A stretch of DNA of 64,000 nt from Erysipelotrichaceae bacterium. GTDB lineage: Bacteria; Bacillota_I; Bacilli_A; Erysipelotrichales; Erysipelotrichaceae. Where the stretch lies: contig JAAXXT010000006.1 of NCBI GenBank assembly GCA_013334325.1, positions 1 through 64,000 on the forward strand, read 5' to 3'. How positions within the stretch are numbered: the stretch's first letter is position 1; the number at the start of each line of letters is the position of its first letter. Positions 25,040 through 39,948 of this stretch are shown piece after piece. The notes beneath the pieces were generated by a model. The model saw nothing but the letters and a program-made list of their open reading frames with translations. It was not told the DNA's origin and searched no databases. The position numbers and the translations under genes are program-made.

Positions 25040-25379
25040 AGTAGTGTCCTTTCATAAATGAGATAAATGACTCAGTAATAGATTCAGATCTTTAATCTCT
25101 TTCGATTATCCTTTATTTCAATATTAACATAGTTTACTTTATCTGAAATTTTAACTCTCAAATCAAAATTTAGTTTCAATTTACTAGCCTAATAGTCTGT
25201 GTATTATGAGTGTATCTTGTCTTCAATTAATTGGTTTTTTATAATGGTACACTTCTCGTGCGCTTTCCAAAATAAGCATAAGAAAACCCTTATTAATAAG
25301 AGCTTAGGGATTTTTGATAAATCGTTTAGATAAGGATCAATAGAAAACAATTATTTTCGATGAAAACGTTACACTTATG
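25040..25379. other. intergenic stretch with degenerate promoter module
   Basis: No gene. It contains the terminator of the upstream gene (25273-25308), a CAGACT box preceded on the minus strand by ACACTCAT, and a single degenerate GTGTACC. It looks like an eroded copy of the island promoter module. Confidence 0.5.
25273..25308 (-). terminator. terminator of the 25380 gene
   Basis: Minus-strand stem CCCTAAGCTCTTATT and AATAAGGG followed by TTTTCTT, about 70 bases after the stop codon. Confidence 0.65.
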
Positions 25380-25385
25380 TTACAC
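25368..25385 (-). promoter_or_regulatory. GTGTAAC direct repeat, 11-bp period
   Basis: Two heptamers GTGTAAC at 25379-25385 and 25368-25374, overlapping the stop codon of the 176-residue gene. Same spacing as at 26677, 29155 and 30198. Confidence 0.6.
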
Positions 25386-25910
25386 CTCAATTTTATTCTT
25401 TATTGATATTTCAAACGTATAGCCATCAAGTTCTAATTCGTACTTACTATCAAAGATTCGATCCTCTTCACACGTGATTTGGAGTTTATTCTTCTCCCAA
25501 TCATGGAACTCTATATCGATCATTTTAATAGGGCTTGTTAAGACTACTTTATCCTTCAAACTTGATTCAACTTTTTCTATAGATAAGAAGCAGTTTAGAA
25601 TAAAATCATCAGAAGGCGATAATGTAATCGACTCATAATGATAACGAGAAACATCATACTCTATCAAATCACCACTGCAACAATCTACCAGGTATAAATA
25701 ATCTGAAGTTAAAACAAGAATTTTACTATGTTTCCTTGAAAGTTGGACCATCTTCGGTAGACCTCTAAATGATCCACACCATTCAACAAAATCATCTTCA
25801 AACCTAACCCAAGTCCAATATGGTGAATTCCAAACACTTTGAATGTCATAGATTCTCTCTTTGTATTGACCTGAATAGGGTTGATCAATTATTGTTGCAC
25901 CTGTTATCAT
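25380..25910 (-). CDS. unknown 176-residue soluble protein
   Basis: No signal peptide or membrane helix. It is rich in aromatic and acidic residues, with tryptophans at the N-terminus (SVWNSPYWTWVRFEDD). It resembles immunity or WD-like beta-strand proteins only vaguely. GAGG lies before the ATG. It is probably co-transcribed with the upstream gene at 25972 (61-base gap). The family is not recognised. Confidence 0.6.
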   Translation of the reverse strand: MITGATIIDQPYSGQYKERIYDIQSVWNSPYWTWVRFEDDFVEWCGSFRGLPKMVQLSRKHSKILVLTSDYLYLVDCCSGDLIEYDVSRYHYESITLSPSDDFILNCFLSIEKVESSLKDKVVLTSPIKMIDIEFHDWEKNKLQITCEEDRIFDSKYELELDGYTFEISIKNKIEV

Positions 25911-25971
25911 TTTTTACCTCAAAATTAAACTTCCTGTTTACCAATTTACCACGTTTATAGATTTAAACAAA

Positions 25972-26502
25972 TTAGTTAAGTTTTATCGTCTGTCCCCATT
26001 CAATAAACAGATCTTGAGAATCTTCCGCGTTTTTTGTCTCACATGCAAACTGAATGAGCCAAAACGCATCCGAACTTTTATGGACGGTCGCAAAGTAACT
26101 GAACTGCTTTCCGTTAACTGTCTTCTCGTATTTGAAGAAAGTTAAGTTGTCTTTTTCTTCAATGGCAGAATCTATCATGTTATTTTCGATCACAAGTTCC
26201 GCATATTCCTTCACAGAAATATCCGTGGATAAGCCGATAGATTCAAAAATAGTGAATTCTTCCTTTAAAACCGTGACAATATATTTCTGCGACTCATAGT
26301 AGGCGGTTTGAGAAGCAATTTCCTTTTCGTAAAAATCAGATGTCAAAGATATTGTCATGCCTGCTTTCGTAAATTCTTTTGTCTTGGCTTTCAATATAAA
26401 GAGATTGCTCAACCCACTACTGAGTACAAAAAAAACAGAAAAGCTCAAGACTGTCGATAATACAATCAATCCAATCTGCATAGGTCTACTAAGTTTTTTC
26501 AT
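25972..26502 (-). CDS. unknown membrane-anchored protein
   Basis: A 176-residue protein with one N-terminal helix (about 10-31) and an extracellular alpha/beta domain. The end pattern, in which a stretch of F-x-K-Y-E and FAT strands is followed by W-L-I-Q-F-A-C, recalls PsbP/MOG1-like or DUF1795-type surface domains. GAGGGG lies before the ATG. It is the first gene after the promoter module at 26600-26694. The function is unknown. Confidence 0.6.
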   Translation of the reverse strand: MKKLSRPMQIGLIVLSTVLSFSVFFVLSSGLSNLFILKAKTKEFTKAGMTISLTSDFYEKEIASQTAYYESQKYIVTVLKEEFTIFESIGLSTDISVKEYAELVIENNMIDSAIEEKDNLTFFKYEKTVNGKQFSYFATVHKSSDAFWLIQFACETKNAEDSQDLFIEWGQTIKLN

Positions 26503-26599
26503 AATTCTCCCCTCAAGATGAACTTGATTTTTATATAAGACTTAACTGGTCTGCGATGATTTTTATGGAACAAATTATTTGCCACCCAGTGTTATCTTC

Positions 26600-26694
26600 A
26601 TTATCCTCTTTACCCATTCCTAAGTCTACCTGTGATGCGTGTTTTTCGTTCTCTTTTAATAGTTTTCCATAAAATCGTTACACTTCTGTTACAC
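26600..26694 (-). promoter_or_regulatory. island promoter module, copy 1
   Basis: Minus strand, in order: GTGTAAC twice with 11-base period (26677-26694), a 48-base A-rich spacer ending in CGCATCACAGG, -35 TAGACT (26623-26628), 17 bases, -10 GATAAT (26600-26605). It drives the 26502 gene. Copies 2 and 3 have the same spacing. Confidence 0.7.
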
Positions 26695-26792
26695 CTGAGA
26701 ATTGGAAATATTATTGCTTGATAGTGATACATTACTGATTACAAAAACCATATAGCTTCGCATGACTCTCTTGGTGATCAGAGTTTATCTAA

Positions 26793-27389
26793 CTAGTAGA
26801 ATTTAAGTTGGGTAATTTTTTTACCTAAGCGGGTTGACCAAAGATTTTCCAATGAATCTGTCATATAGTAAACGGATGCAAGCATTTTTTGCTTTTCTCC
26901 GTACTTATAGAAGATGAGTCCTTTCTTTGCATAAAAGAGAAGCTCTTCCATTTCCGGTCTTACAAAATCCTCAAGTTGCGAAAGTCCCCATGGAGAATGA
27001 ATCCCGCTTTTCTCATTTTCACATTCAGAATCGATTTCTTTCAGGATCTCTTCCAAAAGTGTCACTGTTTCATCGATCGCATTCAGTTTCTTGAATCTTG
27101 GACCCACCTTTCGAATATGCCGTTCTATCTTTTTCATATCTGAGATTGAAATCTGTTTACCGCAGCTTGGGCATTTAAACTCAGTCCATATAAACTTAAC
27201 ATCTCCAAACATGTATCCTTCTCCTCCTGCGGAACTAAAATCGTATTCTTTTGCCTCTGGAGATTTGGAATTTACGATCTTGGAAACCTTAGTTTTGGAT
27301 AATAAAGAATGACAATCAGGGCAGTAATGTTTCTTAATGTTGACATAAAATGGACTTGTCCATGTTCTTTTGATGTGTTGGAATTTCAT
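26793..27389 (-). CDS. zinc-ribbon protein of unknown function
   Basis: A 198-residue soluble protein with two CxxC pairs (CPDC about 18-21, CPSC about 75-78), a likely zinc ribbon, followed by a helical C-terminal half. GGAG lies before the ATG. Repeat copy R1 is immediately upstream. No family recognised. It resembles small DNA- or RNA-binding accessory proteins only in the ribbon. Confidence 0.6.
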   Translation of the reverse strand: MKFQHIKRTWTSPFYVNIKKHYCPDCHSLLSKTKVSKIVNSKSPEAKEYDFSSAGGEGYMFGDVKFIWTEFKCPSCGKQISISDMKKIERHIRKVGPRFKKLNAIDETVTLLEEILKEIDSECENEKSGIHSPWGLSQLEDFVRPEMEELLFYAKKGLIFYKYGEKQKMLASVYYMTDSLENLWSTRLGKKITQLKFY

Positions 27390-27430
27390 AAGATCTCCAT
27401 TGTTTTCACTTTTTCAATTTATCCTAATAA

Positions 27431-27520
27431 CCACTGCAGTCTGACTCTCTTTACTCACCACGGTGAGTTTGCAAAGACCGTGGTCTGAGTGGACTTGGGA
27501 TCTCTTATAAACCCACTGCA
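27431..27520 (-). repeat. 3' island repeat, short copy R1
   Basis: A 90-base relative of R2 bounded by CCACTGCA at both ends. The core is ACCACGG and CCGTGGT around a 14-base loop. Compared with R2 the inner part is missing, exactly between two ACCGTGG copies, as expected from a deletion by short direct repeats. It follows the stop of the 27532 gene. Confidence 0.65.
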
Positions 27521-27531
27521 ACTAATTAAGC

Positions 27532-28308
27532 TTAGTGAAATGCCCAGCTGTTTGCCAATTTAAATTCTAGTAAGACCTGCCAAGGATCTTCAATCTGATT
27601 TTTACTAATTTCTATAATTCCCATATTTGGCATAATCATTTTATCTTTATCTAACATAATCAGAAAAGCACTTCCATATTCTCCATCATCTGAGTATTCT
27701 TGGCCAATGAAGAGCAATCGTCCTTCTTTATCTTGAGATAATAGCACTAAATCAGAGGAGTTCAAGTCACCAGGCAATATCTCAATCATTTCATTCAATT
27801 CACGAGTAGATAGTGGTCGGTTCTTATTGCGACGCAATTCCGTTGTAAACATATTACTTGGGTTCAGTGGCTCATTCCAATCATTTCGTTCTTTAAGATC
27901 ATTTATCATGGATTCGTTGAAATTAGCATTTATGATCTGATCACTCAATTCGTCTTCTTTTGTTGACCAAGCATAAATCTTTGAAATCATATTGACTCCG
28001 TCGTAATAGGATACTGTTTTTTCATCAGATGTTTGAACGATACCGACAGCTAATGTGTAATCGTCGTAGAGATGAGAAACACCAATGAAGCCATATAGGA
28101 TTCGTCCAAATGAATCAACTTCAATAATGATTGTCTTATCATGATAACCACCTTCCGCCCCTAGAATTGATTCTCTCGAGGCAACGAGCAGTGTAATATC
28201 ATTATCATAATATTTAGATCCATCAATTTCTAAGCAAGACGAAAGTAAAGCAAGCGCCAATCCTATAACTAGAATTTCTTCTATTTTGAGAAAAGCTTTT
28301 GTCTTCAC
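27532..28308 (-). CDS. unknown lipoprotein
   Basis: A 258-residue protein starting at GTG with AGGAGG upstream. An N-terminal hydrophobic stretch ends in lipobox LSSC (Cys about 25). The mature part is acidic and mixed alpha/beta. It has no clear -10/-35 of the shared island type. Repeat R1 follows it and R2 precedes it. Confidence 0.65.
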   Translation of the reverse strand: MKTKAFLKIEEILVIGLALALLSSCLEIDGSKYYDNDITLLVASRESILGAEGGYHDKTIIIEVDSFGRILYGFIGVSHLYDDYTLAVGIVQTSDEKTVSYYDGVNMISKIYAWSTKEDELSDQIINANFNESMINDLKERNDWNEPLNPSNMFTTELRRNKNRPLSTRELNEMIEILPGDLNSSDLVLLSQDKEGRLLFIGQEYSDDGEYGSAFLIMLDKDKMIMPNMGIIEISKNQIEDPWQVLLEFKLANSWAFH

Positions 28309-28386
28309 TTAATACCTCCTTGCCTATTGAGTCTACAATTGATTTATTTTATACTTTATCGAACCAAATAGGGTTCTCTACTAAAT

Positions 28387-28557
28387 CCACTGCGTTCCAA
28401 ATTCTTAGAACTCACCACGGTCTTCGTATTCACTCCATGGGAACATTCTCCACAATCTAGTACGAACGCTTAGGCACACGCATTCGTGTCCCACGGTGAG
28501 GTTGCCAAGATCGTAGTCTGAGTGAGTTGGTGATCTCTCATAAGCTTACTGCAGTCT
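28387..28557 (-). repeat. 3' island repeat, full copy R2, 5S-rRNA-like
   Basis: A 171-base repeat starting at the stop codon of the 28556 gene and bounded by CCACTGC and ACTGCA. On the minus strand a 112-base core is closed by a long stem (CTACGATCTT with AAGACCGTGG). It contains a GTGCCTAAGC block and the block GTTCCCATGGAGTGAATACG, in the order and spacing of 5S rRNA. A strongly diverged 5S-derived element is my inference. R3 shares most of it. Confidence 0.6.
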
Positions 28558-29041
28558 AGTTATATCCCCAGAAGGAGCGACCGATCTTTTTTATCGTGTC
28601 TACATCTATTGATTCATCAAATAGGAAATCTCGAACTTCCAAAGTCCCATTAACTCTGTGCCAAATCTCAAGCATATACCTTTCGAAACTACCCTCATCA
28701 TTTTGTATTTTAACAGTATGTATTTTTACACGATTATTCAGACTTAAGCCATTCATATATTCAATAGTGAATATCTGATTGTTGCTGATATCAGTGTAAT
28801 AATGTTCTCCATTCACAAACTTATATTCAAGTTCAACCATATATACTTGATTTAAATTCTCATCCTGTTTTCCATTATCTAGGATTATCCCTCTATCAGT
28901 TTTATTGATTATCCATTCGTCAGGTATACAAAATCGTCCAAATCCATTTATATTGAGTTGCTTTAAACCATTATCATAAAACACAATAAAACATAGAACT
29001 ATTGCTAAGATGATAGATAAAATGATAACTATTCTTTTCAT
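28556..29041 (-). CDS. unknown membrane-anchored protein
   Basis: A 161-residue protein. The start at 29041 is preferred over one 12 bases upstream because GGGAGAG then serves as ribosome site. One N-terminal helix (about 3-21) and a beta-rich extracellular domain. The size and layout resemble the 25972 gene, but the sequence differs. It is driven by promoter module copy 2 and followed by repeat R2. Confidence 0.6.
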   Translation of the reverse strand: MKRIVIILSIILAIVLCFIVFYDNGLKQLNINGFGRFCIPDEWIINKTDRGIILDNGKQDENLNQVYMVELEYKFVNGEHYYTDISNNQIFTIEYMNGLSLNNRVKIHTVKIQNDEGSFERYMLEIWHRVNGTLEVRDFLFDESIDVDTIKKIGRSFWGYN

Positions 29042-29076
29042 TGTCTCTCCCATCTTGAACCAAACTTACTGAACTC

Positions 29077-29172
29077 ATTATCCCTTTTATACATCCAATA
29101 GTCTACCTACTATGCGTATTTTTCTTTCTCTTTTATATCGTTTTCTATAAATCCGTTACACTTTTGTTACAT
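29077..29172 (-). promoter_or_regulatory. island promoter module, copy 2
   Basis: Minus strand: ATGTAAC and GTGTAAC with 11-base period (29155-29172), a 49-base A-rich spacer with CGCATAGTAGG, -35 TAGACT (29100-29105), 17 bases, -10 GATAAT (29077-29082). Confidence 0.7.
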
Positions 29173-29259
29173 TTCAGAGATTGAACTTTTGAACCTATGT
29201 TATTCTACTCAGAGGGCTCTATTAAGACCACTACAACCATATTTTTATCATAATTAAGT

Positions 29260-29637
29260 CTACGATTTTTTGCACATCACTTGTATATAAAGGATCGATA
29301 CAATCTGTATTACTCCAGTTGCGTTAAGCCAGAATTCTAACTTATTCTGTGTAAAATATATAAAAGTCATAAGAACAAGCATCGCAATATAAGCCAGATT
29401 CATAATTAGTAATACACAGTTAACTAAGAAGGGTAACCTTTCCCAATATTCTAAATATAGGGTTCGAGATAGAAAAGAACTTCCACTTTGCCTTTTTTTC
29501 TGTTTATTTAGGCTCTCTTTATGAAACCCAAGAAACCTATCTATAGGTTCTTCAATAAACATCGCATAAGTAATGATATAAATCAACAGAAAGACTAAAA
29601 TTATAAGTAGATAGCCTAATATTGTAAAAACATACAT
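29260..29637 (-). CDS. unknown three-helix membrane protein
   Basis: A 125-residue protein with one N-terminal helix (about 7-28), a basic loop with KKRQSGSS, and two C-terminal helices (about 70-92 and 102-118). GGAGG lies nine bases before the ATG. Repeat R3 is upstream. Family not recognised. Confidence 0.6.
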   Translation of the reverse strand: MYVFTILGYLLIILVFLLIYIITYAMFIEEPIDRFLGFHKESLNKQKKRQSGSSFLSRTLYLEYWERLPFLVNCVLLIMNLAYIAMLVLMTFIYFTQNKLEFWLNATGVIQIVSILYIQVMCKKS

Positions 29638-29692
29638 ATCAATGGACCTCCATTGTTTTGCGAAATTTAAGTATCATATAGTTCGTTATCAT

Positions 29693-29800
29693 AACGCACT
29701 ACGGTCTTCGTATTCGCTCCAGGTGGAGCATTCCCCACATTCTAGTATCAATGCTTAGGCACACCCAATCGTGTTCCACGGTGAGTTTGTTAAGACCATT
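29693..29800 (-). repeat. 3' island repeat, copy R3
   Basis: It shares with R2 the minus-strand blocks CTCACCGTGG, GTGTGCCTAAGC, GATACTAG, a GTGGGG/CTCCAC hairpin and GCGAATACGAAGACCGT. The outer arms are less conserved than in R2. It lies between the 29887 gene stop and the 29637 gene start. Confidence 0.6.
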
Positions 29801-29886
29801 TCAATATTAAAAGTTATCGAGTGCACTATTAATTCTCTTCTGTTTTGTCAGTTCGTTTGATGAATATCCTATATCTTGATTGGAAA

Positions 29887-30093
29887 CTATATTGTTTCCT
29901 TATTTCCTTTATAGGAATAAACAAGCCCAACGATAAACACTACTAAAAAGAACACAAACATGAACTCAAAACTAATATGTAGTGTAGACCTTGCACTACC
30001 ATAAGATCCCCCGATAGCAGATGCAATCAAGATACCGACTATACCAACCGTTCCGCTTAACACAAGTCCGATGCCTAATAATAGTTTTTTCAT
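29887..30093 (-). CDS. unknown small two-helix membrane protein
   Basis: A 68-residue protein from ATG 30093 (AGGTGG upstream) with two membrane helices separated by a GGSYGSARST loop. Driven by promoter module copy 3. It is the last gene of the island before the prophage end. Confidence 0.6.
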   Translation of the reverse strand: MKKLLLGIGLVLSGTVGIVGILIASAIGGSYGSARSTLHISFEFMFVFFLVVFIVGLVYSYKGNKETI

Positions 30094-30119
30094 TTTGCCC
30101 ACCTAAGTATGTTATTTTC

Positions 30120-30215
30120 ATTATGCCTTTTCATAGCCCGAAAGTCTACCCACTATGAGTGTTATTTTGTCTTCTTTTTAATCGTTTTTTAGAAAATGTT
30201 ACACTTTTGTTACAC
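30120..30215 (-). promoter_or_regulatory. island promoter module, copy 3
   Basis: Minus strand: GTGTAAC twice with 11-base period (30198-30215), a 49-base A-rich spacer ending ACACTCATAGTGGG, -35 TAGACT (30143-30148), 17 bases, -10 CATAAT (30120-30125). Confidence 0.7.
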
Positions 30216-30232
30216 CTGGCACTTTTGACCTG

Positions 30233-30257
30233 CAAAAAACCCTGATAGAATCAGGGC
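30233..30257 (-). terminator. former tRNA-Thr terminator
   Basis: Minus-strand stem CCCTGAT and ATCAGGG with loop TCT and TTTTTT. It lies 12 bases beyond the left attachment repeat and is probably the original terminator of the tRNA gene, displaced by the insertion. Confidence 0.75.
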
Positions 30258-30268
30258 CTAGAGTGAAA

Positions 30269-30285
30269 TGGTGCCGACAACAGGA
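30269..30285. other. attL: left attachment site, tRNA 3' end copy
   Basis: TGGTGCCGACAACAGGA, identical over 17 bases to the 3' end of the tRNA-Thr gene at 39932-39948. It marks the distal end of the inserted element. Confidence 0.85.
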
Positions 30286-30401
30286 TATGACACCGGCATA
30301 TTTTCGAGGAATAGTAGTGTTCAATAAACCTTATAAATAGGGCATTATCAACTGAAGTATTGAATAATAATCGTTTCGAAATAATTGGTTATTCAAAATT
30401 A

Positions 30402-30421
30402 TGTTAGCAAAACGTTAGCAA
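30402..30421. repeat. integrase arm-type repeats, left
   Basis: Two GTTAGCAA direct repeats with 11-base period, about 120 bases inside the left end. The same pair with the same period occurs at 39862-39879 inside the right end. Confidence 0.7.
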
Positions 30422-30448
30422 ACATTCGAGATCTCTATGATGATAGAA

Positions 30449-30670
30449 CTAGTCTCTTTTACCACTGTTGTTGGAATTTATTGCCACAATCAATTGATCA
30501 ATTTTGATCCATATTACAGCTATCAACGTAAATATACCGATAACAATCGAGAATAAATAACTGTTAATGAATGCCACATCAAACACATAGGTGGAAACGA
30601 ATCCCGGTAGAATATAAGCGATGGTAAATGCAGAAAGAACTATTAATATATATTTAATTGTGTTTTTCAT
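30449..30670 (-). CDS. unknown two-helix membrane protein (element cargo)
   Basis: A 73-residue protein with two helices (about 7-27 and 35-57). Its ATG at 30670 follows the upstream stop codon by one base, so translation is coupled to the secreted protein gene. Both lie inside the attachment repeats and are probably passenger genes of the element. Confidence 0.6.
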   Translation of the reverse strand: MKNTIKYILIVLSAFTIAYILPGFVSTYVFDVAFINSYLFSIVIGIFTLIAVIWIKIDQLIVAINSNNSGKRD

Positions 30671-30671
30671 T

Positions 30672-31796
30672 TTAGTGCCCATCTGTATGGTATGAAATCA
30701 GATTTACTCCATCGTACTCACTATTTTCTATACCAGGTGATAGTGAAACTCCTACCCCAGGATATTGTGAGCCAAGATTCCAGCTAAATGAGTAACCCAA
30801 GTTAATGACAGGATGCGCATGTTGATATACTGTAAATACATTGAATTCTTGGCTTTCATTGTAAGTTGACACCCTTGCCTTTGCACTAATATACATACTT
30901 AATGAAGTTACGGTTTTTCTTATGTTGGAAACCCAGTTGAATGTATCAATTGGTAAGTCCCAAGTATAATAGACACCAGAGTTTGGACTAAAGTATTGAT
31001 CTTGCTTATATTTTATGTATGGCCCCATAAGTTTAGTGGTTATAGACCCATTGTTATTAGTTTTCATAGTATACTGCATTCTTGAAGACATGTCCTCATC
31101 TCCTAATTGCCAGGCAGTCTTTCCATTGTTGGTTGCAATTGAGAACGCGTCTTTCAATCTTGCGTTCGGGATTATTAACCAAGTATAAGTCCCGGATAAA
31201 GTGTAATACCCTATCCCTCCCTGTATATTAGGGTCAAGATAATATGCAGTCGTTAGGATTTTCATATAACCATCCTTGGACCAATAATAATGGTATGACG
31301 TATTACTTGGAGATGTCGCGCTAGTGGTCATAACGGGTTCGCTAGAAAGCATTGCGTTGCCATTGAGTTCTTGATTCTCATACTGCTTAACTTGTAGGAT
31401 GCTTTCGAAACACTGTTTTTTGGATAAATAATCAATGCTTCCATCTTTTGATACTTTTACATACTGTTCAATTACCTTTATGTAAACAGACTCAGTCAAT
31501 ATTCTCGCCAATTCTTCGTAACCAATGAGTTGAATCTGTTCTGCTGAATATCCAAGTTCAGAAAATACATAATCAATAATCTCGTCATTTTCAACTTGAC
31601 CTACTCCATTTCTATCTAGATATGATTTAACACTTTTCAAATTTGCTTTTCTTAACAATGAATCGCCCGAAACTTCAGTAGAAATCGCAAGCAACGATTT
31701 GATAGATAAGGATAAATCAGTCGATGCTGATACTGAACTTATCTCTGAAAATAGTAAAACACAAAATATAACCAAAGTTAAAATAGTTCTTTTCAT
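30672..31796 (-). CDS. unknown secreted protein (element cargo)
   Basis: A 374-residue protein from ATG 31796, chosen because AAGGAAATG fits and the signal peptide then starts correctly (residues 1-25, ending SVSAS). The mature part is helical for about 110 residues, then beta-rich with many Tyr, Thr and Ser residues. The position at the end of the prophage, next to the attachment site and after the lysis genes, is typical of lysogenic-conversion genes. No family recognised. Confidence 0.6.
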   Translation of the reverse strand: MKRTILTLVIFCVLLFSEISSVSASTDLSLSIKSLLAISTEVSGDSLLRKANLKSVKSYLDRNGVGQVENDEIIDYVFSELGYSAEQIQLIGYEELARILTESVYIKVIEQYVKVSKDGSIDYLSKKQCFESILQVKQYENQELNGNAMLSSEPVMTTSATSPSNTSYHYYWSKDGYMKILTTAYYLDPNIQGGIGYYTLSGTYTWLIIPNARLKDAFSIATNNGKTAWQLGDEDMSSRMQYTMKTNNNGSITTKLMGPYIKYKQDQYFSPNSGVYYTWDLPIDTFNWVSNIRKTVTSLSMYISAKARVSTYNESQEFNVFTVYQHAHPVINLGYSFSWNLGSQYPGVGVSLSPGIENSEYDGVNLISYHTDGH

Positions 31797-32102
31797 TTCA
31801 TTTCCTTTCATAATGATCATAACTACCATAGAACCAATAACACAATTGTCGAAACTCGCCCCACCCCCTCATTTTAATTATTGTATTTAGGCTCGATAAT
31901 CTGATAATAGACTTAACGTTACTCAAAAGTCAAGGTAATCAAGACTATTCTTTATAATTCTTCTTGTGCTTACACACTATCTATTGCATCGAGTAACAAA
32001 CGCCTAAAAATATCACAAGTTTTCGAATTTTACATCTAATTCGTTCTGAATGCTAACATTCAAAAAGCCCCTAAGGATCCAGTGTTCCTTAGGGGCTTTT
32101 TG
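31797..32102. other. intergenic, terminator and weak promoter only
   Basis: About 300 bases without a gene. A weak minus-strand promoter (TCGACA, 16 bases, TATGGT) lies near 31825-31850, and the lysis-operon terminator is at 32059-32100. Confidence 0.4.
32059..32100 (-). terminator. terminator of the lysis cassette
   Basis: Very strong inverted repeat AAAAAGCCCCTAAGGA and TCCTTAGGGGCTTTTT with an eight-base loop, just after the XhlA-like gene. Confidence 0.95.
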
Positions 32103-32378
32103 TTAATTGGGTTCTTCTTCTTGATCTGATAAGTGCCCTGATTTCGCACAGTTCAGTTCCATTGATTGGAGCTTCTTTTCAGCCCTAGTCAATCTCTGAT
32201 CAAGCTTCGACACCAGCTTCTCGGTATTGTTGAGGTTGGTTGATAGTTCCTTGATCAGCACTTTAAGTTCATTGATTGCTTCGGTCAGATTTGAGAATGG
32301 CTTTGCGATTAGAGCGAACAGTGTTCCAATCGATATAAGCGCAATGGCAACGACCCCAATACCTTCAGCTGGCGACAT
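32103..32378 (-). CDS. XhlA-like holin-associated protein
   Basis: A 91-residue protein with one N-terminal helix (about 6-24) followed by a long coiled coil (ELKVLIKELSTNLNNTEK through RAEKKL). This matches the layout of hemolysin XhlA-type proteins in phage lysis cassettes. AAAGGAG lies before the ATG and overlaps the end of the endolysin gene. Confidence 0.65.
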   Translation of the reverse strand: MSPAEGIGVVAIALISIGTLFALIAKPFSNLTEAINELKVLIKELSTNLNNTEKLVSKLDQRLTRAEKKLQSMELNCAKSGHLSDQEEEPN

Positions 32379-32380
32379 AC

Positions 32381-33159
32381 CTATTTCTCCTTTGGGACAA
32401 AGCTGAGGTTGATCAGCATCCCGTCCTGCTCCAGCGCTACTGTGAGCGGTTTGTAGATGATCTTATCAATCGTAATCGTAGTAGGTTCAATGAACTTGAC
32501 CGTATTCCATTTCGAATTAATCCCACAGAACACATGTGATCCATCATCAAGCAAGATCTCTGCCCATTCATATCCACCTAAAAGTTGAGACTTACCAATG
32601 TATGGGTAAGATCTCTTCTCGAGATACTTGATTCTTGAACCGTTGGGCTTATCGCGGTAGAAAAGTTCAGGCACAATAACTGTAAGCATTGGCAATGGTG
32701 GTCTATTCATTCTGATCTCCTCATAAGGCGTGATTGCCTTGGTTCCTAATAGATAGGGCGTCGGATCAACGAATACTCCTTTGATCCTAATTCCTAGATG
32801 CATGTGAGCCCCTGTGACTGTTCCAGTATGTCCTGCTGTAGCGATCGTAGGGCCACGTTCAACGATTTGATTAACTTTGACACAGATACTACCAGGCGCT
32901 AAATGTTTGTACAATGGCTCTGTATAGTCTTCATGTTGAAAACGATGTAGTTACCTTCGACACTGTTATAACCCACATCAGTAACTTTGCCTCTTTCAAT
33001 AGCCATTGCCTTAACAACTGGCACCATATCGATACCGGTATGCCAAGTCACGTGAGTTGTACCAACCATGAAGTCAACCTTGACAAACGGACAAATTACG
33101 TAAACACTTTTAAGCCCGATTAGAACTCTCTTAATAAAGTTCGTATAAGCTTGGCTCAT
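32381..33159 (-). pseudogene. M23 endolysin, broken by a frameshift
   Basis: The two halves of one peptidase lie in different frames. The N-terminal part (33159 to about 32940) has the first zinc motif WHTGIDM. The C-terminal part has GAHMHLGIR and an SH3-like tail. Near 32935-32943 one missing base shifts the frame; restoring it joins NYIVFN to EDYTEPLYKHL. An intact protein would be about 258 residues and cut cell-wall cross-bridges. The start overlaps the holin stop (ATGA). If the shift is real, the prophage cannot lyse normally; an assembly error is the alternative. Confidence 0.8.
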
Positions 33160-33584
33160 CAGCCCAATACTTCACTTTCGTCCACTTCATCAACAACTGG
33201 TTCAGCTCCGAATGGTGTGTATGTATCCGACTTGTTAAACATCTCATTTAGCTTGTCATCGATGGTCTGCATAAAGGCAGGTGTTGGGATGCCAAATAAG
33301 AAGATCATGTTCTGCAGAGTACTGTTGCCATAATAGGCAATAACCAAAGTCATTAGCAATTTAAATGTTGGTTCAGCAAATGGTAATCCGAAGATCTGTG
33401 CAATTCTTAAGTAGTAGAACATTAAGCCCCCAATTAAAGCCGTAAATGCCAACAGAACGATATTCTTTAATCCACTTAAGGCAAGTGACCACTTGAACTC
33501 ATTTCGTTTCAGCGCCCCCGCAATACCGTTAGCATAATCTAATAGAACTATACACAATGCGATGATCACGAAATGCGCAATCAT
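33159..33584 (-). CDS. phage holin (toxin secretion/phage lysis type)
   Basis: A 141-residue protein with about four hydrophobic segments (1-20, 31-60, 72-88, 89-105). The DYANGIAGALKRNEFKWSLALSGLKN stretch is typical of phage_holin_4 proteins, followed by an acidic tail. It would form the pore that releases the endolysin. Directly followed by the endolysin gene. Confidence 0.85.
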   Translation of the reverse strand: MIAHFVIIALCIVLLDYANGIAGALKRNEFKWSLALSGLKNIVLLAFTALIGGLMFYYLRIAQIFGLPFAEPTFKLLMTLVIAYYGNSTLQNMIFLFGIPTPAFMQTIDDKLNEMFNKSDTYTPFGAEPVVDEVDESEVLG

Positions 33585-33628
33585 AAATTCAAGAAATGCG
33601 TCATTTAGGTTTACCCTCTTTCTGTGTA

Positions 33629-33653
33629 AAATAAAAAGAGCCTAAGCTCTTTA
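33629..33653 (-). terminator. terminator after the tail gene
   Basis: Minus-strand stem AAAGAGC and GCTCTTT with loop TTAG, then TATTTT. It lies six bases after the stop that the unshifted tail frame would use (33659-33661), but inside the frame read after the shift. Confidence 0.75.
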
Positions 33654-33658
33654 GATTC

Positions 33659-34787
33659 TTATGCTGTTTTCTTCCACATATAAACCACGATGTAAGATGC
33701 AAATTATTGTGGGATCCACCACCTCCTGAATTAGCGATACTAACCGTATGTTGATGTCCTCCCTTAGAATCTGTTAAATAAACATTATTCCCGCTTACCC
33801 AAGATATTGGTCTGTTAAAACTTGATCCACTCGCGACACTTGGACTTGGTACTGCCCCAATTAAATAATGAGTATGCGCACCTTGCGTGTCTTCCGAAGC
33901 GGTATGATTATGGGCTGGTATTTCGGTCGTCGCAAGAGTGTGCGTTTTAGCCCCACTTGTTTCCTCAACTGAATTAAACTCTGTCTGAGAAGCATCTAAA
34001 CCCACTAAAGTCTTACCAGCGCCAAATGTCACCCAAGTGTCAAATCCAAATAACGTCGCTGGATTTGTTGAAACCACAGACATATAAATTGCACACAAAG
34101 AATTCCCCAATTTTACCCCTCTAGAATTGATGTCTCCATCTGCATTTATTGATATACCATCGGCAACATCAGCAACATCGATAGTTCCCGACCCATCATA
34201 GGTCTTACCAAACGACGCATAACGTTTACCCAAGATCATACTCACATCGCCACTTGGGAGAAATGTCATTCCTTCAGCATAGTCATCTGTAACTTCTAAA
34301 GTAGAGGCATCGTTATCTAGATCATAGAAGGCATCGAACACCCTTAAACGGATGTCATAGACCTCAGCAGCTAAGAATCCAGCTTTGCTGAAGTCGTTAA
34401 CTCGCCGAAGGTTAGACCTCCTGGAGCAATAGCAGAATTCTTGCTAAAGGAACCAGTACTCTTGATTCGGTAATCGATTTTATACTTGATCCAATTCTTC
34501 TCAGTAGTACCATCCAAGGCCTTTACTGCTATAGCCGTTCCTTTGATAACACATCGGAGATAGGTTCCAAATACCGGATCAAACACTCCACTTACAGTAG
34601 ATCTGTAGACTTCAAATTTATCGACTTTTGGATAAGTATAGGCGCGTACGGTGATCGGTGCTGAGGTAAACACGGCTGTTCTTCCTCGGCTGTCTATGAT
34701 TGTAATAGTTGCTGTTAAATTTCCCGATGTATTGAGAATATCAGTAACAACTGGACTGGTAGACTGAGTCTTATCAGTCCCGGCAAA
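33659..34787 (-). pseudogene. phage tail fibre / collar protein remnant, two frameshifts
   Basis: A C-terminal remnant of a minor structural protein. The first part (34787-34371) reads through Ig-like strands. Near 34400 the frame shifts, and the original continues as NDFSKAGFLAAEVYDIRLRV into the next open part (34341 onward). That part ends in a collar domain with TTEIPAHNHT and GGGGSHNNL. Near 33700 a second missing base diverts the usual end SYIVVYMWKKTA into another frame. Upstream an in-frame TAG at 34788-34790 cuts it off. No capsid, portal or terminase genes remain. Confidence 0.75.
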
Positions 34788-34823
34788 CTAAACACGTAAG
34801 GTCACTCCTTTCGCATAAGTTAT

Positions 34824-34934
34824 CTTAATTAATTTTCAATATATTATTTAGTTTTCTTATGTCAAAACCAGAATTATAGTTTTCTTAATTAAATCTTATG
34901 TTTTGCTTGAATACAATTAAGAAATGTTTATAAT
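34824..34934. promoter_or_regulatory. repressor operators and promoter
   Basis: Three copies of a CTTAATTAA-type site: 34824-34832, 34884-34892, and an inverted copy TTCTTAATT at 34915-34923. The third sits inside the spacer of the promoter TTGAAT (34907-34912), 16 bases, TATAAT (34929-34934) that reads into the repressor gene. This suggests autoregulation. Confidence 0.65.
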
Positions 34935-34952
34935 TAGCCTTGAGGTAACATC

Positions 34953-35597
34953 GTGAAAAAATTTGCTGAACGACTTCAAGTAGCTCTCTCTATAAGAAAA
35001 ATAAAAGCTGCAGAGCTCGCAACTCGAACTGGATTAAGTCAATCATTGATTTCACAATACTTAAATGGGAAATTTGATGCTAAAAATGACAAAATCTGTG
35101 CCATTGCGAGCGCACTGAATGTTAGCGAATCTTGGTTAGCCGGGTTCACTAATGAACTTGATCCTTGGGAAGACGACAAAAGCATGGTTCCTTTAAAAGT
35201 GATGACCAATAAGATCACTGCGTATGGTCGGATCCCAGTCGGCATCCCCTTTGAAGCAATCCAGGATCTCTTGGAAGAAGTTGAGATACCAAGTTGGCTC
35301 GCAGAGAAAAAAGGCCTATTCGGCCTTAAGGTAGTTGGAGACAGTATGAACAAAGTTCTTCCTGACGGATCCATCGCGGTTCTTCAGAAGACAGATACCT
35401 TGAATAATGGGGAGATCGGTGCGATCCTGGTGAACGGGTTCGATGCCACACTGAAGAAGTTCTATCAGCTGACGGACAGCATCGTCTTAGAACCGCTGAG
35501 CTATAATCCAGATAATAAGACTCTGATCTATACTGACGAAACTGAGATCCGACCAATAGGTAAACTAGTTTGGTTCTGTGCAGCACAAGGGTGGTAA
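34953..35597 (+). CDS. phage CI/LexA-type repressor with S24 peptidase
   Basis: A 214-residue repressor starting at GTG with GAGGTAAC upstream. HTH_3 domain at residues 5-62 (AAELATRTGLSQSLISQYL). S24 domain with an AYGRIPVG linker where self-cleavage is expected, Ser131 in VVGDSM and Lys168. It would keep the prophage silent and be inactivated by RecA after DNA damage. The cleavage pair reads Ala-Tyr-Gly rather than Ala-Gly. Operators lie directly upstream. Confidence 0.9.
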   Translation: MKKFAERLQVALSIRKIKAAELATRTGLSQSLISQYLNGKFDAKNDKICAIASALNVSESWLAGFTNELDPWEDDKSMVPLKVMTNKITAYGRIPVGIPFEAIQDLLEEVEIPSWLAEKKGLFGLKVVGDSMNKVLPDGSIAVLQKTDTLNNGEIGAILVNGFDATLKKFYQLTDSIVLEPLSYNPDNKTLIYTDETEIRPIGKLVWFCAAQGW

Positions 35598-35616
35598 GAA
35601 AGAGGGGGATATTGGT

Positions 35617-36579
35617 ATGAAGAAATTCTTTAAATGGTATGACAGAAATTTTGGATGGTTATTTAACTGGTTCATCAAACATCCTGTAGTATTCATCTTT
35701 CTAGTGACTCTCGTTACAATTAATCTGATCACCAGGGGTGAATATGTTTGGAGCACGATCTACATTGTTATGTTGTTCTTTATTGTGTCGTTATTCATTT
35801 TTATGCAGATCGATGCGTTAAAGAAAAACCACTTACTGCGCAGAGTTGCGTTGTACTTGATGGTGTTCATTGGGACCAGTTATGGTCTCGTCAGGTTTCT
35901 CAAAATGATTCCAGAAGATTATCTAGTTGTTGGAGTTGATGATTGGCTCGGATTCGCCGGTGGCCTCTTCGGAGGATTCATAGCGATCTATGGTATTTGG
36001 ATCACTCTTGAAGAAACCAGGAAGCAGAATGCTGAGACATTAGCCTTACAATCCATTCCTCTTATTACAATCGATGTTCCGGAGTTTTTCTATGAAACAG
36101 ACGGGGTAGTATACACAACACTTGATGAAATCGATCCTTTTACTGAGAGCGGGTTTTTCCATGTGAGAGTTCCCTTCTCTCTGAATAATAAGTCAGCCCA
36201 TATTGCAAGAAACTTCAGATTCATAAAAGCTGAATTTGTATCCCGAAGTATTTTGAGTGGCATTGAAGATCTTGGCACTGGTAAAGAAGCCGCATTCAAG
36301 AATATCCTCAATGAGGTAAATGAGCAGCTTGAGAAGATTTCGGCTCTTCCTGGCGGATATAGCGACACGCTATTCATTAATGTGCAACTTGAGTTGCTAA
36401 AACATGATCGGATCACTTTCGAATTTATTCTCGAATATTCAGACTATTTAGGTAAACTCAGTCATCAAATTGAAAACAAAACAAATGTTGTAGTAACCAG
36501 AAAGAGAACCAAAGAGGAAGAACGTTGGAAAAACACCTTGAGCAATTCGGTAACTACAAAGAATAAGTTTTTAAAATAG
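35617..36579 (+). CDS. unknown membrane protein in prophage
   Basis: A 320-residue protein from ATG 35617 (GAGGGGG upstream; a start inside the repressor gene is unlikely). It has four N-terminal helices (about 12-32, 40-62, 72-90, 105-125) and a 190-residue cytoplasmic domain beginning EETRKQNAETLALQS. The layout of membrane anchor plus soluble domain suits superinfection exclusion or abortive-infection proteins, but no family is recognised. Confidence 0.6.
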   Translation: MKKFFKWYDRNFGWLFNWFIKHPVVFIFLVTLVTINLITRGEYVWSTIYIVMLFFIVSLFIFMQIDALKKNHLLRRVALYLMVFIGTSYGLVRFLKMIPEDYLVVGVDDWLGFAGGLFGGFIAIYGIWITLEETRKQNAETLALQSIPLITIDVPEFFYETDGVVYTTLDEIDPFTESGFFHVRVPFSLNNKSAHIARNFRFIKAEFVSRSILSGIEDLGTGKEAAFKNILNEVNEQLEKISALPGGYSDTLFINVQLELLKHDRITFEFILEYSDYLGKLSHQIENKTNVVVTRKRTKEEERWKNTLSNSVTTKNKFLK

Positions 36580-36640
36580 CGATTAGGATTTCCAAATCAA
36601 ACATAAATAATCCTATGCGATTATTGAAAGGGGCTAAATA

Positions 36641-37477
36641 ATGTTTTTCTTTGATTTTACAGATCGGGGTAGTGAATTTCCTTTGTTCGAAGATATTCGT
36701 AATGTAACAGAAGATGGTAAAGAATTTTGGTTTGCACGAGATTTGATGGGGGTGCTTGAATACTCGAAATGGGACAATTTTGTCAACGTTATCGAAAAGT
36801 CGAAAGAGGCTTGCGAGAACAGTGGTTTTGACTCAACTGATCATTTTGCCGACGTCAGCAAAACGATACAGATGCCCAAAGGAGCTGAGAAAGAAATCCC
36901 GGATATCATTCTAACTAGATATGCTTGCTATTTGATAGTTCAGAATGGAGACTCAAGAAAGAAAGTCATTGCTCTTGGACAGACTTACTTTGCTGTTCAA
37001 ACTCGGAAACAAGAGATTGAAGATATAAGTAAACTAAGTGAAGATCAGCGACGTCTGCAACTAAGAGTTAGCATCAAGGATTTCAATAAGAAACTATATA
37101 AAGCTGCTACTGACTCAGGCGTAGTTCACTATGGAAAGTTCACTAATTTTGGATACAAAGGGTTATACGGTGAGGAAACTGAAAAAGATATCCATCGAAG
37201 AAAAAATCTTAAAGAGAACGAAAAGATCCTTGATCACATGGGCGCTACTGAATTGGCTGCCAACTTCTTTAGGATAACTCAGACTGAAGAAAAGTTGAAG
37301 AATGACAACATCACATCAGAGGAAGAGGCAAATAAAACACATTACCGAATAGGTGTTAAGATCCGCAAAACGATGGTTGAAATTAGTGGAACACTTCCAG
37401 AAAATCTGCCAACTCCTGAGTCAAGTATAAAAGAGATTGAAAAGAAGAGTAAATCAGATACGAAACATTTAAAGTGA
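36641..37477 (+). CDS. dinD: DinD-like DNA-damage-inducible protein (BRO-N type)
   Basis: A 278-residue protein matching the pattern of DinD. The N-terminal BRO-like domain includes WFARDLMGVLEYSKWDNF (about 29-46) and ILTRYACYLIVQNGD. The ending is NKTHYRIGVKIRKTMVEI with a lysine-rich tail. DinD proteins are SOS-induced and modulate RecA filaments. An AAGGGG site precedes the ATG. In a prophage controlled by a LexA-like repressor this fits SOS-linked regulation. Confidence 0.8.
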   Translation: MFFFDFTDRGSEFPLFEDIRNVTEDGKEFWFARDLMGVLEYSKWDNFVNVIEKSKEACENSGFDSTDHFADVSKTIQMPKGAEKEIPDIILTRYACYLIVQNGDSRKKVIALGQTYFAVQTRKQEIEDISKLSEDQRRLQLRVSIKDFNKKLYKAATDSGVVHYGKFTNFGYKGLYGEETEKDIHRRKNLKENEKILDHMGATELAANFFRITQTEEKLKNDNITSEEEANKTHYRIGVKIRKTMVEISGTLPENLPTPESSIKEIEKKSKSDTKHLK

Positions 37478-37511
37478 TCAAAATACTGATTAATATGTGT
37501 CGGAGGAACTA

Positions 37512-38003
37512 ATGGACATGTCTAAAACACAAAAAAATAATGAAGTGAAATTCATTGAAAGATATTCTCCTGAAGACTATATGAATGCACGGCTTGACCA
37601 GCAAATTAAATGGTATGACCAAAAATCAATTGGATTTAAGAACTTACATTTCTGGTTAGTTTTTGGTTCTATCATTTTATCGTCCCTAGGTTCGTTCATC
37701 GCGATCTTGGGTTTCTTGCTTCTCGAATTCACTCTTCTTATTCAGATTGTTTCATCTGTTCTAGGTATCATCGTAGCTCTCTGTCTTGCTCTGGATAAAT
37801 TTAATACCTATCAAGAATTACATTTACAATATCGCTCAACATGTGAGAAATTGAACCAGGAAAAACTCCTTTATCTGACGAGGGCAGGCGATTATACATC
37901 TAGTGATGATAACTCGAATTTCAGACTTCTTGTTCAGCGATGTGAAAGTGTTATGGCTACTGAAACAGGAAACTGGGCTCAACTAAAAGAAAAGAAGACT
38001 TAA
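37512..38003 (+). CDS. SLATT/DUF4231 two-helix membrane protein
   Basis: A 163-residue protein from ATG 37512 (GGAGG five bases upstream). Residues 27-40 (ARLDQQIKWYDQKS), two helices (about 47-70 and 75-96) and the C-terminal YRSTCEKLNQEKLLYL with a final NWAQ follow the DUF4231 family. SLATT-type 2-TM proteins are predicted pore-forming effectors of nucleotide-signal immune systems. It sits two genes before a ThsB-like TIR protein. An effector role in membrane disruption is inferred from the family. Confidence 0.8.
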   Translation: MDMSKTQKNNEVKFIERYSPEDYMNARLDQQIKWYDQKSIGFKNLHFWLVFGSIILSSLGSFIAILGFLLLEFTLLIQIVSSVLGIIVALCLALDKFNTYQELHLQYRSTCEKLNQEKLLYLTRAGDYTSSDDNSNFRLLVQRCESVMATETGNWAQLKEKKT

Positions 38004-38197
38004 TCCTTCTTCCCTAATACTACATAAGTTTTGTCGAATATATCTGGTTTACACGGATACTTCTCACCAGCCACACCAGTAATGATCCAATCGCCCTTAT
38101 GAGCAATCATATCCCCTTCAAGGGTATGAATGATCTGATCGCGATCAGATATCTCTGCATCTACGATTATTGCCTTCTTTTGGACTCTATATTTCAT
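38000..38197 (-). CDS. small phage protein of unknown function
   Basis: A 65-residue protein with the sequence pattern of a common small phage protein: an MKYR start, HTLEGDMIAHKGDWIITG, then KYPCKPDIFDKTY. It is shorter than usual, lacking the middle part. It is antisense to the rest of the right arm and overlaps the SLATT gene end by four bases, so it probably marks an insertion or rearrangement between the SLATT and TIR genes. Confidence 0.65.
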   Translation of the reverse strand: MKYRVQKKAIIVDAEISDRDQIIHTLEGDMIAHKGDWIITGVAGEKYPCKPDIFDKTYVVLGKKD

Positions 38198-38241
38198 TGC
38201 TCACCATCAAACGAATTATATCAAAGAAAGGGGGTAAAAGC

Positions 38242-38634
38242 ATGATTACAGTTCGATTGTTCATCAGTCATTCATGGTCATATAAAGAAGATTACGAAAA
38301 GATTATTAAGAATTTAAGCGACTACATTAACATCATTGACTATTCGATCTCTTCAGACGAACCAAAGGATGCTGATTCGGTTAGAGAGCTTAAGAGAATG
38401 ATTACAAATAATCTTAATCAATGCCAATGTTTTGTCGTTTTGGCAGCAATGTATGCATATCATAGCAAATGGATTGAATATGAAGTTAATGAAGCCATAA
38501 GACTTGGAAAACCGATAGTAGCTGTTAAACCATGGGGCCAAGAACGAGTCCCACAGTTTATTCAGGATAACGCTGACAAGATTGTTGGTTGGAATTACGA
38601 AACAATGGCTAACGCCATAAAAGATTTGATTTAA
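38242..38634 (+). CDS. ThsB-like TIR-domain protein (DUF1863)
   Basis: A 130-residue single-domain protein from ATG 38242 (GGGGG upstream). It starts with FISHSWSYKEDY (7-18) and has VVLAAMYAYHSKWIEYEVNEA (65-85). The highly typical VKPWGQERVPQ (95-105) and IVGWN follow. This is the MTH538 TIR-like family of Thoeris ThsB. ThsB proteins detect phage and make a cyclic ADP-ribose-type signal from NAD. No ThsA gene is nearby; the only candidate effector is the SLATT protein. Confidence 0.85.
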   Translation: MITVRLFISHSWSYKEDYEKIIKNLSDYINIIDYSISSDEPKDADSVRELKRMITNNLNQCQCFVVLAAMYAYHSKWIEYEVNEAIRLGKPIVAVKPWGQERVPQFIQDNADKIVGWNYETMANAIKDLI

Positions 38635-38652
38635 ATTATCAACAATGGTGAG

Positions 38653-38714
38653 AAAAACGTCCTGGCTGGCACCAGGACGCAAGTACAACTTATCCTATCA
38701 CGGGTTTTGTTGTA
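38653..38714 (-). ncRNA. candidate small RNA beside the integrase gene
   Basis: On the minus strand an extended -10 TGGTATAAT (TATAAT at 38720-38725) is followed by hairpin GTACAAC / GTTGTAC (38709-38715 with 38683-38689) and a strong terminator, CGTCCTGG and CCAGGACG with TTTTT (38653-38679). The predicted RNA is about 60 nt with two stems and no reading frame. No other minus-strand gene needs this terminator. Its promoter overlaps the region in front of the integrase ribosome site. Confidence 0.5.
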
Positions 38715-38748
38715 CCTCCATTATACCAAAACAAAGGAGGTTGTGTTT

Positions 38749-39840
38749 ATGATCGGAAGACGGAATGGCGTTTTATTTTTCTCAGTCCGATACAAGGACT
38801 CGCTGGGAAACACTAAAGCCAAGTTCATGCAGAATAAGGAATGGAAGACCAAGCGCGAAGCTAAAGAAGCGATGAATCTGTTCTTGCTCTCAGTCAAAAC
38901 GAATTACGACAAGATCACTGTTGATCAGCTCTTTATGCTATATCGCGAACATACCAAAGAGAAGATCAAGCAACACAGCATCGATACCCAGGACAACTAT
39001 TACTTCAATCACATCAAACCGTACCTGGGTGATCTGATCATACGCAACATCAGCCCCAGAGATATTCTCAAGTGGCAGAATTACCTTGTGGGCAAGAAGT
39101 TCAGCAATCGATACTCCTCATCGATCCAGCACTTCTTCAGAACGCTGATCAACTTCGGTTTGAAGTACGAGTACATCAATCGTAATCCGTTCAGGGGTGA
39201 CTTCATAGTCAACCACGAAGAGAAGAAGGAAGAGATGGAGATCTGGACGATCGATGATTTCAATCGGTTCATCCCCTACGCTCCTACCTTGACATATGAA
39301 TCATTCTTCACTGTGCTTTATTGGTCTGGTCTGCGCAAAGGCGAAGCTGCGGCTCTTCGTGTAGAAGACATCGATCTCAGGAATTCGCAGATCAACGTCT
39401 CGAAGACCTACGACTTCACGAACAAGTTTTCTACACTGCATAAGACCAGAAACTCGATCCGGACTGTTGCCATTACCGACAATGTTAAAAGCCTCCTGGA
39501 AGAGCTCTGCAAGGCGCACAAAGCATCTTATGAGTACTCAGATGATCGTTATGTCTTCGGATATGACGCGCCTCTTGCGGCAACCACGATCGAACGAGTC
39601 AAACACATAATGTGCCTGGTATCCGGAGTAAAAGAGATCCGGGTCCACGATCTTCGGCACTCTCATGTTTCGCTCTTGGTCTCACTCGGTTTCAGCCCTA
39701 TCGAAATCGCTAAGCGATTGGGTCATACTGTCGACATGGTAAACAATGTTTGCTCTCATTTATTCAAAGATTCCCAGCAAAGAATGGTCGATCGTGTGAA
39801 CGACAAAGCGAACAGTTCAGCCCCGATTATCAAGGCATAA
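38749..39840 (+). CDS. int: tyrosine recombinase integrase, nucleophile replaced
   Basis: A 363-residue phage integrase from ATG 38749 (AAGGAGG). It has an N-terminal AP2-like arm-binding domain (1-50), a core-binding domain (53-155) and a catalytic domain. Catalytic residues visible are R196 (SGLRKGEA), K232, H300-x-x-R303 and H326 in RLGH. The nucleophile position in the VYSHLF motif reads VCSHLF: Cys335, codon TGC 39751-39753, one base from TAC. The gene is GC-richer than its host surroundings. It lies 90 bases from the tRNA attachment site. As written, it should not catalyse strand exchange. Confidence 0.85.
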   Translation: MIGRRNGVLFFSVRYKDSLGNTKAKFMQNKEWKTKREAKEAMNLFLLSVKTNYDKITVDQLFMLYREHTKEKIKQHSIDTQDNYYFNHIKPYLGDLIIRNISPRDILKWQNYLVGKKFSNRYSSSIQHFFRTLINFGLKYEYINRNPFRGDFIVNHEEKKEEMEIWTIDDFNRFIPYAPTLTYESFFTVLYWSGLRKGEAAALRVEDIDLRNSQINVSKTYDFTNKFSTLHKTRNSIRTVAITDNVKSLLEELCKAHKASYEYSDDRYVFGYDAPLAATTIERVKHIMCLVSGVKEIRVHDLRHSHVSLLVSLGFSPIEIAKRLGHTVDMVNNVCSHLFKDSQQRMVDRVNDKANSSAPIIKA

Positions 39841-39861
39841 AAATACATAATTCGAAAAAAC

Positions 39862-39879
39862 GTTAGCAATTTGTTAGCA
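39862..39879. repeat. integrase arm-type repeats, right
   Basis: GTTAGCA at 39862-39868 and 39873-39879, 11-base period, about 55 bases inside the right end. They match the pair at 30402-30421. Confidence 0.7.
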
Positions 39880-39931: not shown

Positions 39932-39948
39932 TGGTGCCGACAACAGGA
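39932..39948. other. attR: right attachment site inside tRNA-Thr
   Basis: TGGTGCCGACAACAGGA, the 3' end of the tRNA gene including CCA, repeated at 30269-30285. The insertion keeps the tRNA intact. Confidence 0.85.

Follow-up and report, generated by a model that had tools for sequence, protein, structure and literature searches.

GTGTAAC repeat pairs as probable integrase arm-type sites of integrase-less islands at tRNA-Thr genes of Erysipelotrichaceae

The DNA analysed here is a 64-kb stretch of Erysipelotrichaceae contig JAAXXT010000006.1 (hereafter the window), which is contig C14 of the 1.95-Mb source genome G000 and carries an island of small genes with GTGTAAC-N4-GTGTAAC pairs between positions 25368 and 30215. 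We consider it very probable that these pairs are arm-type sites, to which the N-terminal domain of a tyrosine integrase would bind, and that they mark both ends of 3-6.5-kb integrase-less elements lying in the 3' ends of tRNA-Thr genes. This reading rests on features of the sequence, namely the arm geometry, the duplicated cores, the homology of the ends, the lack of integrase genes and the association with tRNA-Thr; integrase binding, mobilisation in trans and promoter activity are what we infer.

Repeat pairs and their distances from tRNA-Thr

The pairs present in the window are the following.

30198-30215, minus strand: GTGTAACAAAAGTGTAAC, GTGTAAC-N4-GTGTAAC, putative left-arm pair, 53 bp from the CCA end
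29155-29172, minus strand: ATGTAACAAAAGTGTAAC, ATGTAAC-N4-GTGTAAC, internal, first heptamer 6/7, putative decayed left arm with no core nearby
26677-26694, minus strand: GTGTAACAGAAGTGTAAC, GTGTAAC-N4-GTGTAAC, internal, putative left arm without a core
25368-25385, minus strand: GTGTAACATAAGTGTAAC, GTGTAAC-N4-GTGTAAC, putative right-arm pair, homologous to the right end of an element on contig C72 of the related genome G002

The first three pairs each belong to a 112-bp module on the minus strand, in which the pair is separated from TAGACT by 49, 49 and 48 bp and TAGACT-N17-(C/G/G)ATAAT is present in 3/3 copies. The first-pass annotation, which had described three units of identical architecture, was accurate as to the repeats, the 48-49-bp spacer and TAGACT-N17-(G/C)ATAAT, but one of its heptamers reads ATGTAAC and its CATAGT box is found in only two of the three modules, the 26.6-kb copy having CATCAC instead. 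The fourth pair that it placed at 25368 is indeed there, though without a promoter downstream. Since the three modules can be aligned along their entire 112 bp, the fixed spacing needs no separate explanation and, judging by this alignment, is common descent of homologous copies and not convergent architecture.

Single GTGTAAC heptamers occur nine times in the window against four expected, a count reached in 2/100 shuffles. The exact pair has five copies in the whole of G000, all on the minus strand of C14 and of C11, another contig of the same genome, and a reversed control pattern has none in the same 1.95 Mb. Exact 7-N4-7 direct repeats number 12 in the 64 kb, and the only recurring ones are GTGTAAC and TGCTAAC. 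The latter belongs to a prophage remnant lying next to the small-gene island, where the locus is arranged as follows.

39932-40007, minus strand: tRNA-Thr(CGT) (ARAGORN), integration target of the locus; the same gene directly precedes the module in G001 and G002
39862-39879, minus strand: prophage left-arm pair TGCTAAC-N4-TGCTAAC, 52 bp from the tRNA CCA end
38707-39840, plus strand: 377-aa tyrosine integrase encoded by the resident prophage remnant (PF00589, 5.3e-17, with SAM-like domains; phrog_1 integrase, 1.7e-57)
30403-30420, minus strand: prophage right-arm pair TGCTAAC-N4-TGCTAAC, 134 bp before the duplicated CCA
30269-30298, minus strand: duplicated tRNA-Thr(CGT) 3' end, putative attachment (att) core and left limit of the small-gene element (86.7% identical by blastn to tRNA-Thr positions 48-76, over 30 nt)
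30226-30255, minus strand: terminator-like hairpin with T run (CCCTGATTCTATCAGGG TTTTTT), placed between core and arm and homologous in left ends adjoining a tRNA core

The remnant thus sits between tRNA-Thr(CGT) and its duplicated 3' end, and the duplicate is followed by the hairpin and then by the 30215 pair. A genome search with PF00589 detected no other non-Xer-like integrase in G000 than that of the remnant, and TGCTAAC-N4-TGCTAAC gave just two matches in the 64 kb, one per prophage end, even when three mismatches were allowed. At every left end measured (C14 and C11 of G000, G001, G002 and UBA6182/G125) the tRNA CCA end is followed after 52-53 bp by a GTGTAAC pair; at six right ends the pair precedes the duplicated CCA by 132-133 bp, and at a further one by 117 bp. 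Direct repeats therefore flank the att core at positions that recur in an integrase-encoding element (52-53 and 132-134 bp), and it is because the distances to the tRNA are those of the neighbouring TGCTAAC pairs that we read the GTGTAAC pairs as tyrosine-integrase arm sites; related integrases would be expected to have arm-type sites of just this kind, in matching geometry around a like core but with another heptamer. Exact repeats of 11-bp period were also observed just beyond the integrase genes at C126, C79 and C32 of G001 and G002, that at G001 C126 starting ~53 bp from a tRNA-Gly 3' end, against a background of 0.056 such repeats per 300 bp in the window. Arm repeats of similar size and layout beside tRNA att sites have been proposed for Oenococcus prophages (PMC8074189).

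The remnant itself (30403-39879, ~9.5 kb) retains genes for the integrase, an S24-type repressor, lysis functions (M23 peptidase and holin) and a baseplate protein, and seems too short for a full phage. An integrase 94% identical to that of the prophage is present on the 37.7-kb viral contig IMGVR_UViG_3300010965_000469. The remnant also carries, at 37497-38003, a DUF4231/SLATT-domain protein, a domain class linked to defence systems.

The same arrangement recurs in relatives and at a second tRNA-Thr gene. The module directly follows tRNA-Thr(CGT) in G001 (C45) and G002 (C72), and tRNA-Thr(GGT) on C11, where the 3' end of the latter gene is duplicated at 53.5 kb and, in degenerate form, at 47.05 kb. 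Each of these two duplicates is preceded by a homologous 212-bp right end with a GTGTAAC-like pair, and duplicated tRNA 3' ends with this right end were also found at G001 C112 and G002 C36. The units between duplicates measure 3-6.5 kb and contain small genes and no integrase. Both attL and attR, as tRNA-Thr 3' duplicates with arms at both ends, are kept on C11 (59.8/53.5 kb) and on G002 C72 (4.2/7.26 kb). Across 145 genomes of the family we counted 17 exact pairs, 15 of which are at tRNA-Thr ends or in islands (G000, G002, G098 and G125, from three genera), the remaining two being one coding site in two genomes; element-free tRNA-Thr genes in G004-G007 have no pair. A flanking-gene comparison made for an empty site found the remaining members of the genus not syntenic there. 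In a contig scan, the relatives with the pair were Erysipelotrichaceae metagenome-assembled genomes, including UBA6182, in which core, terminator and pair are kept and the promoter is absent; nine matches from other groups, mostly proteobacteria, were taken as chance. The UBA6182 contig (DITO01000113, L127) has the same tRNA-Thr core and GTGTAAC arm with other cargo, among it an MBL-fold protein and a UvrD-like helicase.

We propose that a left end would consist, in order, of the regenerated tRNA 3' end, the terminator, the arm pair at 53 bp, an A-rich spacer, a sigma-A-type promoter TAGACT-N17-GATAAT and the first cargo gene, and a right end of the arm pair, ~132 bp and the duplicated tRNA 3' end, the interval 25368-30215 being several such elements in series. 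An integrase from another element would bind the arm pairs and the tRNA core and, supplied in trans, insert or excise the element with regeneration of the tRNA gene, after which the left-end promoter would drive the newly arrived cargo.

Several observations weigh against this proposal. In none of G000, G001, G002, G098 and G125 did we find an integrase with GTGTAAC arms, so that the cognate enzyme is missing. The two tRNA-Thr genes that share these arms, CGT and GGT, have differing 3' ends, and a single integrase need not tolerate both. The internal copies at 29172, 26694 and C11 50083 keep a pair beside a promoter but have no tRNA core, the element in the window has a right core degenerated beyond recognition, and the relatives are fragmented metagenome assemblies. 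We read the core-less internal copies as decay after tandem accretion, and a promoter-linked role is possible for them. Scans of viral contigs for GTGTAAC arms found none. Two other candidates were set aside, namely a phage region (L197) rich in TGTTACA repeats, which was taken as chance, and L199, where TGCTAAC repeats lie beside an integrase but the GGCACCA match is no tRNA 3' end.

The putative promoter as a separable module and the regulon reading

The hexamers TAGACT and (G/C)ATAAT are invariant around a variable 17-bp spacer in 9/9 aligned copies. Three promoter copies have no arm pair (G002 C72 5057-5126, G001 C112 4391-4446 and C11 59096) and several pairs have no promoter (those of all right ends, and those at G001 C3, G002 C36 4753 and in UBA6182); since each occurs without the other, promoter and arm pair are, on this distribution, separate modules. 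A shared promoter, as the first-pass annotation had it, is plausible in view of its invariant hexamers and its reuse in other elements, its activity being predicted from sequence; the regulon built upon it is not supported, as the pairs track tRNA-Thr ends and not promoters. A scan with a consensus promoter returned 24 sites against 22.8 expected and cannot separate the promoter from background. Sequences resembling CATAGT-GTAGACT-N17-ATAAT also occur outside the islands, at 9779-9816 of the window and at C27:7265 and C51:73189 of G000, with a palindrome, ACACTCATAGTGT, beside GTAGACT that is exact at 9779 and degenerate at the others. This suggests a host operator or regulator, which the element promoter may have borrowed.

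The first-pass annotation likened the heptamers to OmpR-type sites, and from sequence alone this analogy was reasonable. The consensus of WalR, an OmpR-family regulator, is TGTWAH-N5-TGTWAH, two half sites at 11-bp period, which TGTAAC-N5-TGTAAC matches exactly (PMC4168254), and the 48-49-bp spacing between pair and promoter is kept in the copies holding both. If the pairs were indeed sites at which a WalR/VicR-like response regulator activates the downstream promoters, they should be met at promoters across the genome. On the contrary, the genome-wide motif search found exact pairs solely in the two tRNA-Thr islands, at element ends or within the islands, and nowhere else in the 1.95 Mb. Pairs without promoters and promoters without pairs both exist, the pair would lie ~85-103 bp upstream of the start, which is far for this class, and it is the distances to the tRNA that are constant across elements and agree with the prophage. 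We therefore regard regulator sites of this kind as very unlikely, and the dedicated regulon of unknown membrane and secreted proteins is not supported.

A pair could also serve twice, as an integrase arm site and as a regulatory site at which bound integrase represses or activates the first cargo operon. Most left ends have arm pair and promoter side by side at a fixed spacing, and both are retained in internal copies that have no tRNA core. On the other hand, of the five internal copies in which a promoter can be recognised, three lack one or two bases of the pair (29172, C11 50083 and G002 C36 5532) and another lacks the first heptamer (G002 C36 13565), decay as is expected of an unused site, and the promoter-only copies show the pair to be dispensable for the promoter. 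Such a double function appears unlikely, if somewhat less so than the response-regulator sites. The copies, being 78-91% identical and scattered within islands, might alternatively be dispersed intergenic repeats, similar to miniature inverted-repeat transposable elements, which carry a promoter and insert near tRNA genes. Their strict orientation, fixed distance from the tRNA end, differing left and right ends and accompanying duplicated tRNA 3' ends speak against this; the 112-bp module showed no terminal inverted repeats, the rest of the genome gave no strong copies, and none was seen in unrelated intergenic sites with target duplications. We give this explanation hardly any credence.

The proposed composite element, its cargo and the REP repeat

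The sequence around the pair at 25368 aligns with the right end of the element on G002 C72 at a local score of 124, against a maximum of 62 in 300 shuffles. Because this pair is homologous to a right arm, the interval 25368-30215 would correspond approximately to one composite integrase-arm element, with its left arm at 30215 and its right arm at 25368, and the copies at 29172 and 26694 are best read as left ends without cores, from earlier tandem elements that have since decayed. Its features are given below; REP denotes a ~115-bp palindromic repeat between cargo genes.

30120-30148, minus strand: promoter-like TAGACT-N17-CATAAT, hexamers invariant in the alignment
29887-30102, minus strand: cargo open reading frame (ORF), 71-aa membrane protein, no Pfam, PADLOC or PHROGs match
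29680-29807, minus strand: REP (covariance model R2, 119.7 bits)
29260-29637, minus strand: cargo ORF, 125-aa membrane protein
29077-29105, minus strand: promoter-like TAGACT-N17-GATAAT
28556-29053, minus strand: cargo ORF, 165 aa, N-terminal membrane segment
28396-28525, minus strand: REP (covariance model R2, 141.9 bits)
27532-28308, minus strand: cargo ORF, 258-aa putative lipoprotein
27439-27492, minus strand: REP, internally deleted (covariance model R2, 22.5 bits)
26793-27389, minus strand: cargo ORF, 198 aa, zinc-ribbon-like CxxC motifs (sub-threshold zinc-ribbon matches)
26600-26628, minus strand: promoter-like TAGACT-N17-GATAAT
25972-26502, minus strand: cargo ORF, 176-aa membrane-anchored protein
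25380-25910, minus strand: cargo ORF, 176 aa, stop codon inside the right-arm pair
25177-25263, minus strand: degenerate remnant of another module, with no resolvable pair or core (R1 model, 26.9 bits)

No recombinase was found among the cargo ORFs with Pfam, PHROGs and PADLOC, the PF00589 genome search placed none inside the elements, and PADLOC and PHROGs gave only weak matches to the cargo.

REP, with terminal inverted CCACGGTCTT, separates single cargo genes and lies in gene orientation in the copies examined. Further copies beyond the window are at L044 892-1022, 2401-2531 and 3903-4032, and within the genus REP is confined to the three module-bearing genomes, mostly on the same contigs. 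Single copies near chromosomal genes were noticed in G002 (C54, C27 and C14), and the L127 contig has two degenerate copies within a 460-bp direct repeat. Neither REP nor the rest of the island in the window has a meaningful match in Rfam. Single REPs fold, as DNA or RNA, little better than shuffles, and their alignment has only moderate covariation and had been fitted to the model; we therefore do not claim REP as an RNA.

Homologous blocks between genomes switch near REP. A lipoprotein block shared by C11 and G001 (94% over 1.5 kb) starts ~17 bp ahead of REP. In C11 and G002, a block made up of a gene and its REP (89% over 1 kb) stands behind differing promoters. These patterns suggest that cassettes are exchanged by homologous or site-specific recombination and that REP could delimit them. 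The assembly of G002 C72 ends inside a REP copy (L093:8397-8497), and such islands are therefore probably under-assembled in metagenomes. More speculatively, these may be parasitic mini-elements of Erysipelotrichales that lost their integrase genes and kept intact arm sites through mobilisation by helper phages, with promoter-gene-REP cassettes in which REP acts as a second, integron-like point of recombination and gene exchange; we hold this possible, with the odds clearly against it.

Comparison with known systems

On this reading, what appeared to be a regulon of unknown proteins is recast as a recognisable family of mobile elements. Island finders that demand an integrase gene (Islander) skip such islands, and the signature of a tRNA CCA end, 53 bp and heptamer-N4-heptamer could be used to find them. 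If the arms have been kept through use, these would be very small trans-mobilised islands, bringing in membrane and secreted proteins, as yet uncharacterised, along with a promoter ready for use.

In the attP arm-type sites proposed for Oenococcus prophages, short direct repeats likewise stand on either side of a tRNA 3' core, and the integrase stop codon adjoins attP (PMC8074189), whereas the repeats described here flank integrase-less elements and consist of a 7-bp unit at 11-bp period, two per arm. Chromosomal integrons share the co-oriented arrays of single-gene cassettes with a structured repeat, here REP, between genes. The present elements differ in being bounded by tRNA att sites and in having no IntI-type integrase; in G000 the integrases are Xer-like plus one phage type only, and by inspection REP has no canonical RYYYAAC/GTTRRRY attC boxes.

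The closest likeness is to cis-mobilizable elements (CIMEs) and their tandem accretion, known from ICESt1-related elements of Streptococcus and from Dehalococcoides ssrA islands without integration modules (PMC5704250, PMC3146451). These too carry cargo genes between att sites that are direct repeats of the 3' end of a tRNA or tmRNA gene, occur in tandem arrays and lack genes for an integrase or for transfer. Our elements share all of the features that were tested here (att ends, tandem arrays and the lack of integrase and transfer genes) and on sequence grounds resemble a CIME or a satellite island. Unlike CIMEs, they are very small (3-6.5 kb), have conserved arms at two different tRNA-Thr genes across three genera, combine single genes separated by REP with a promoter module that is reused, and have no autonomous parent that we could find. 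Cis-mobilizable integrase-less islands are thus a known kind, of which the variant described here is unusual.

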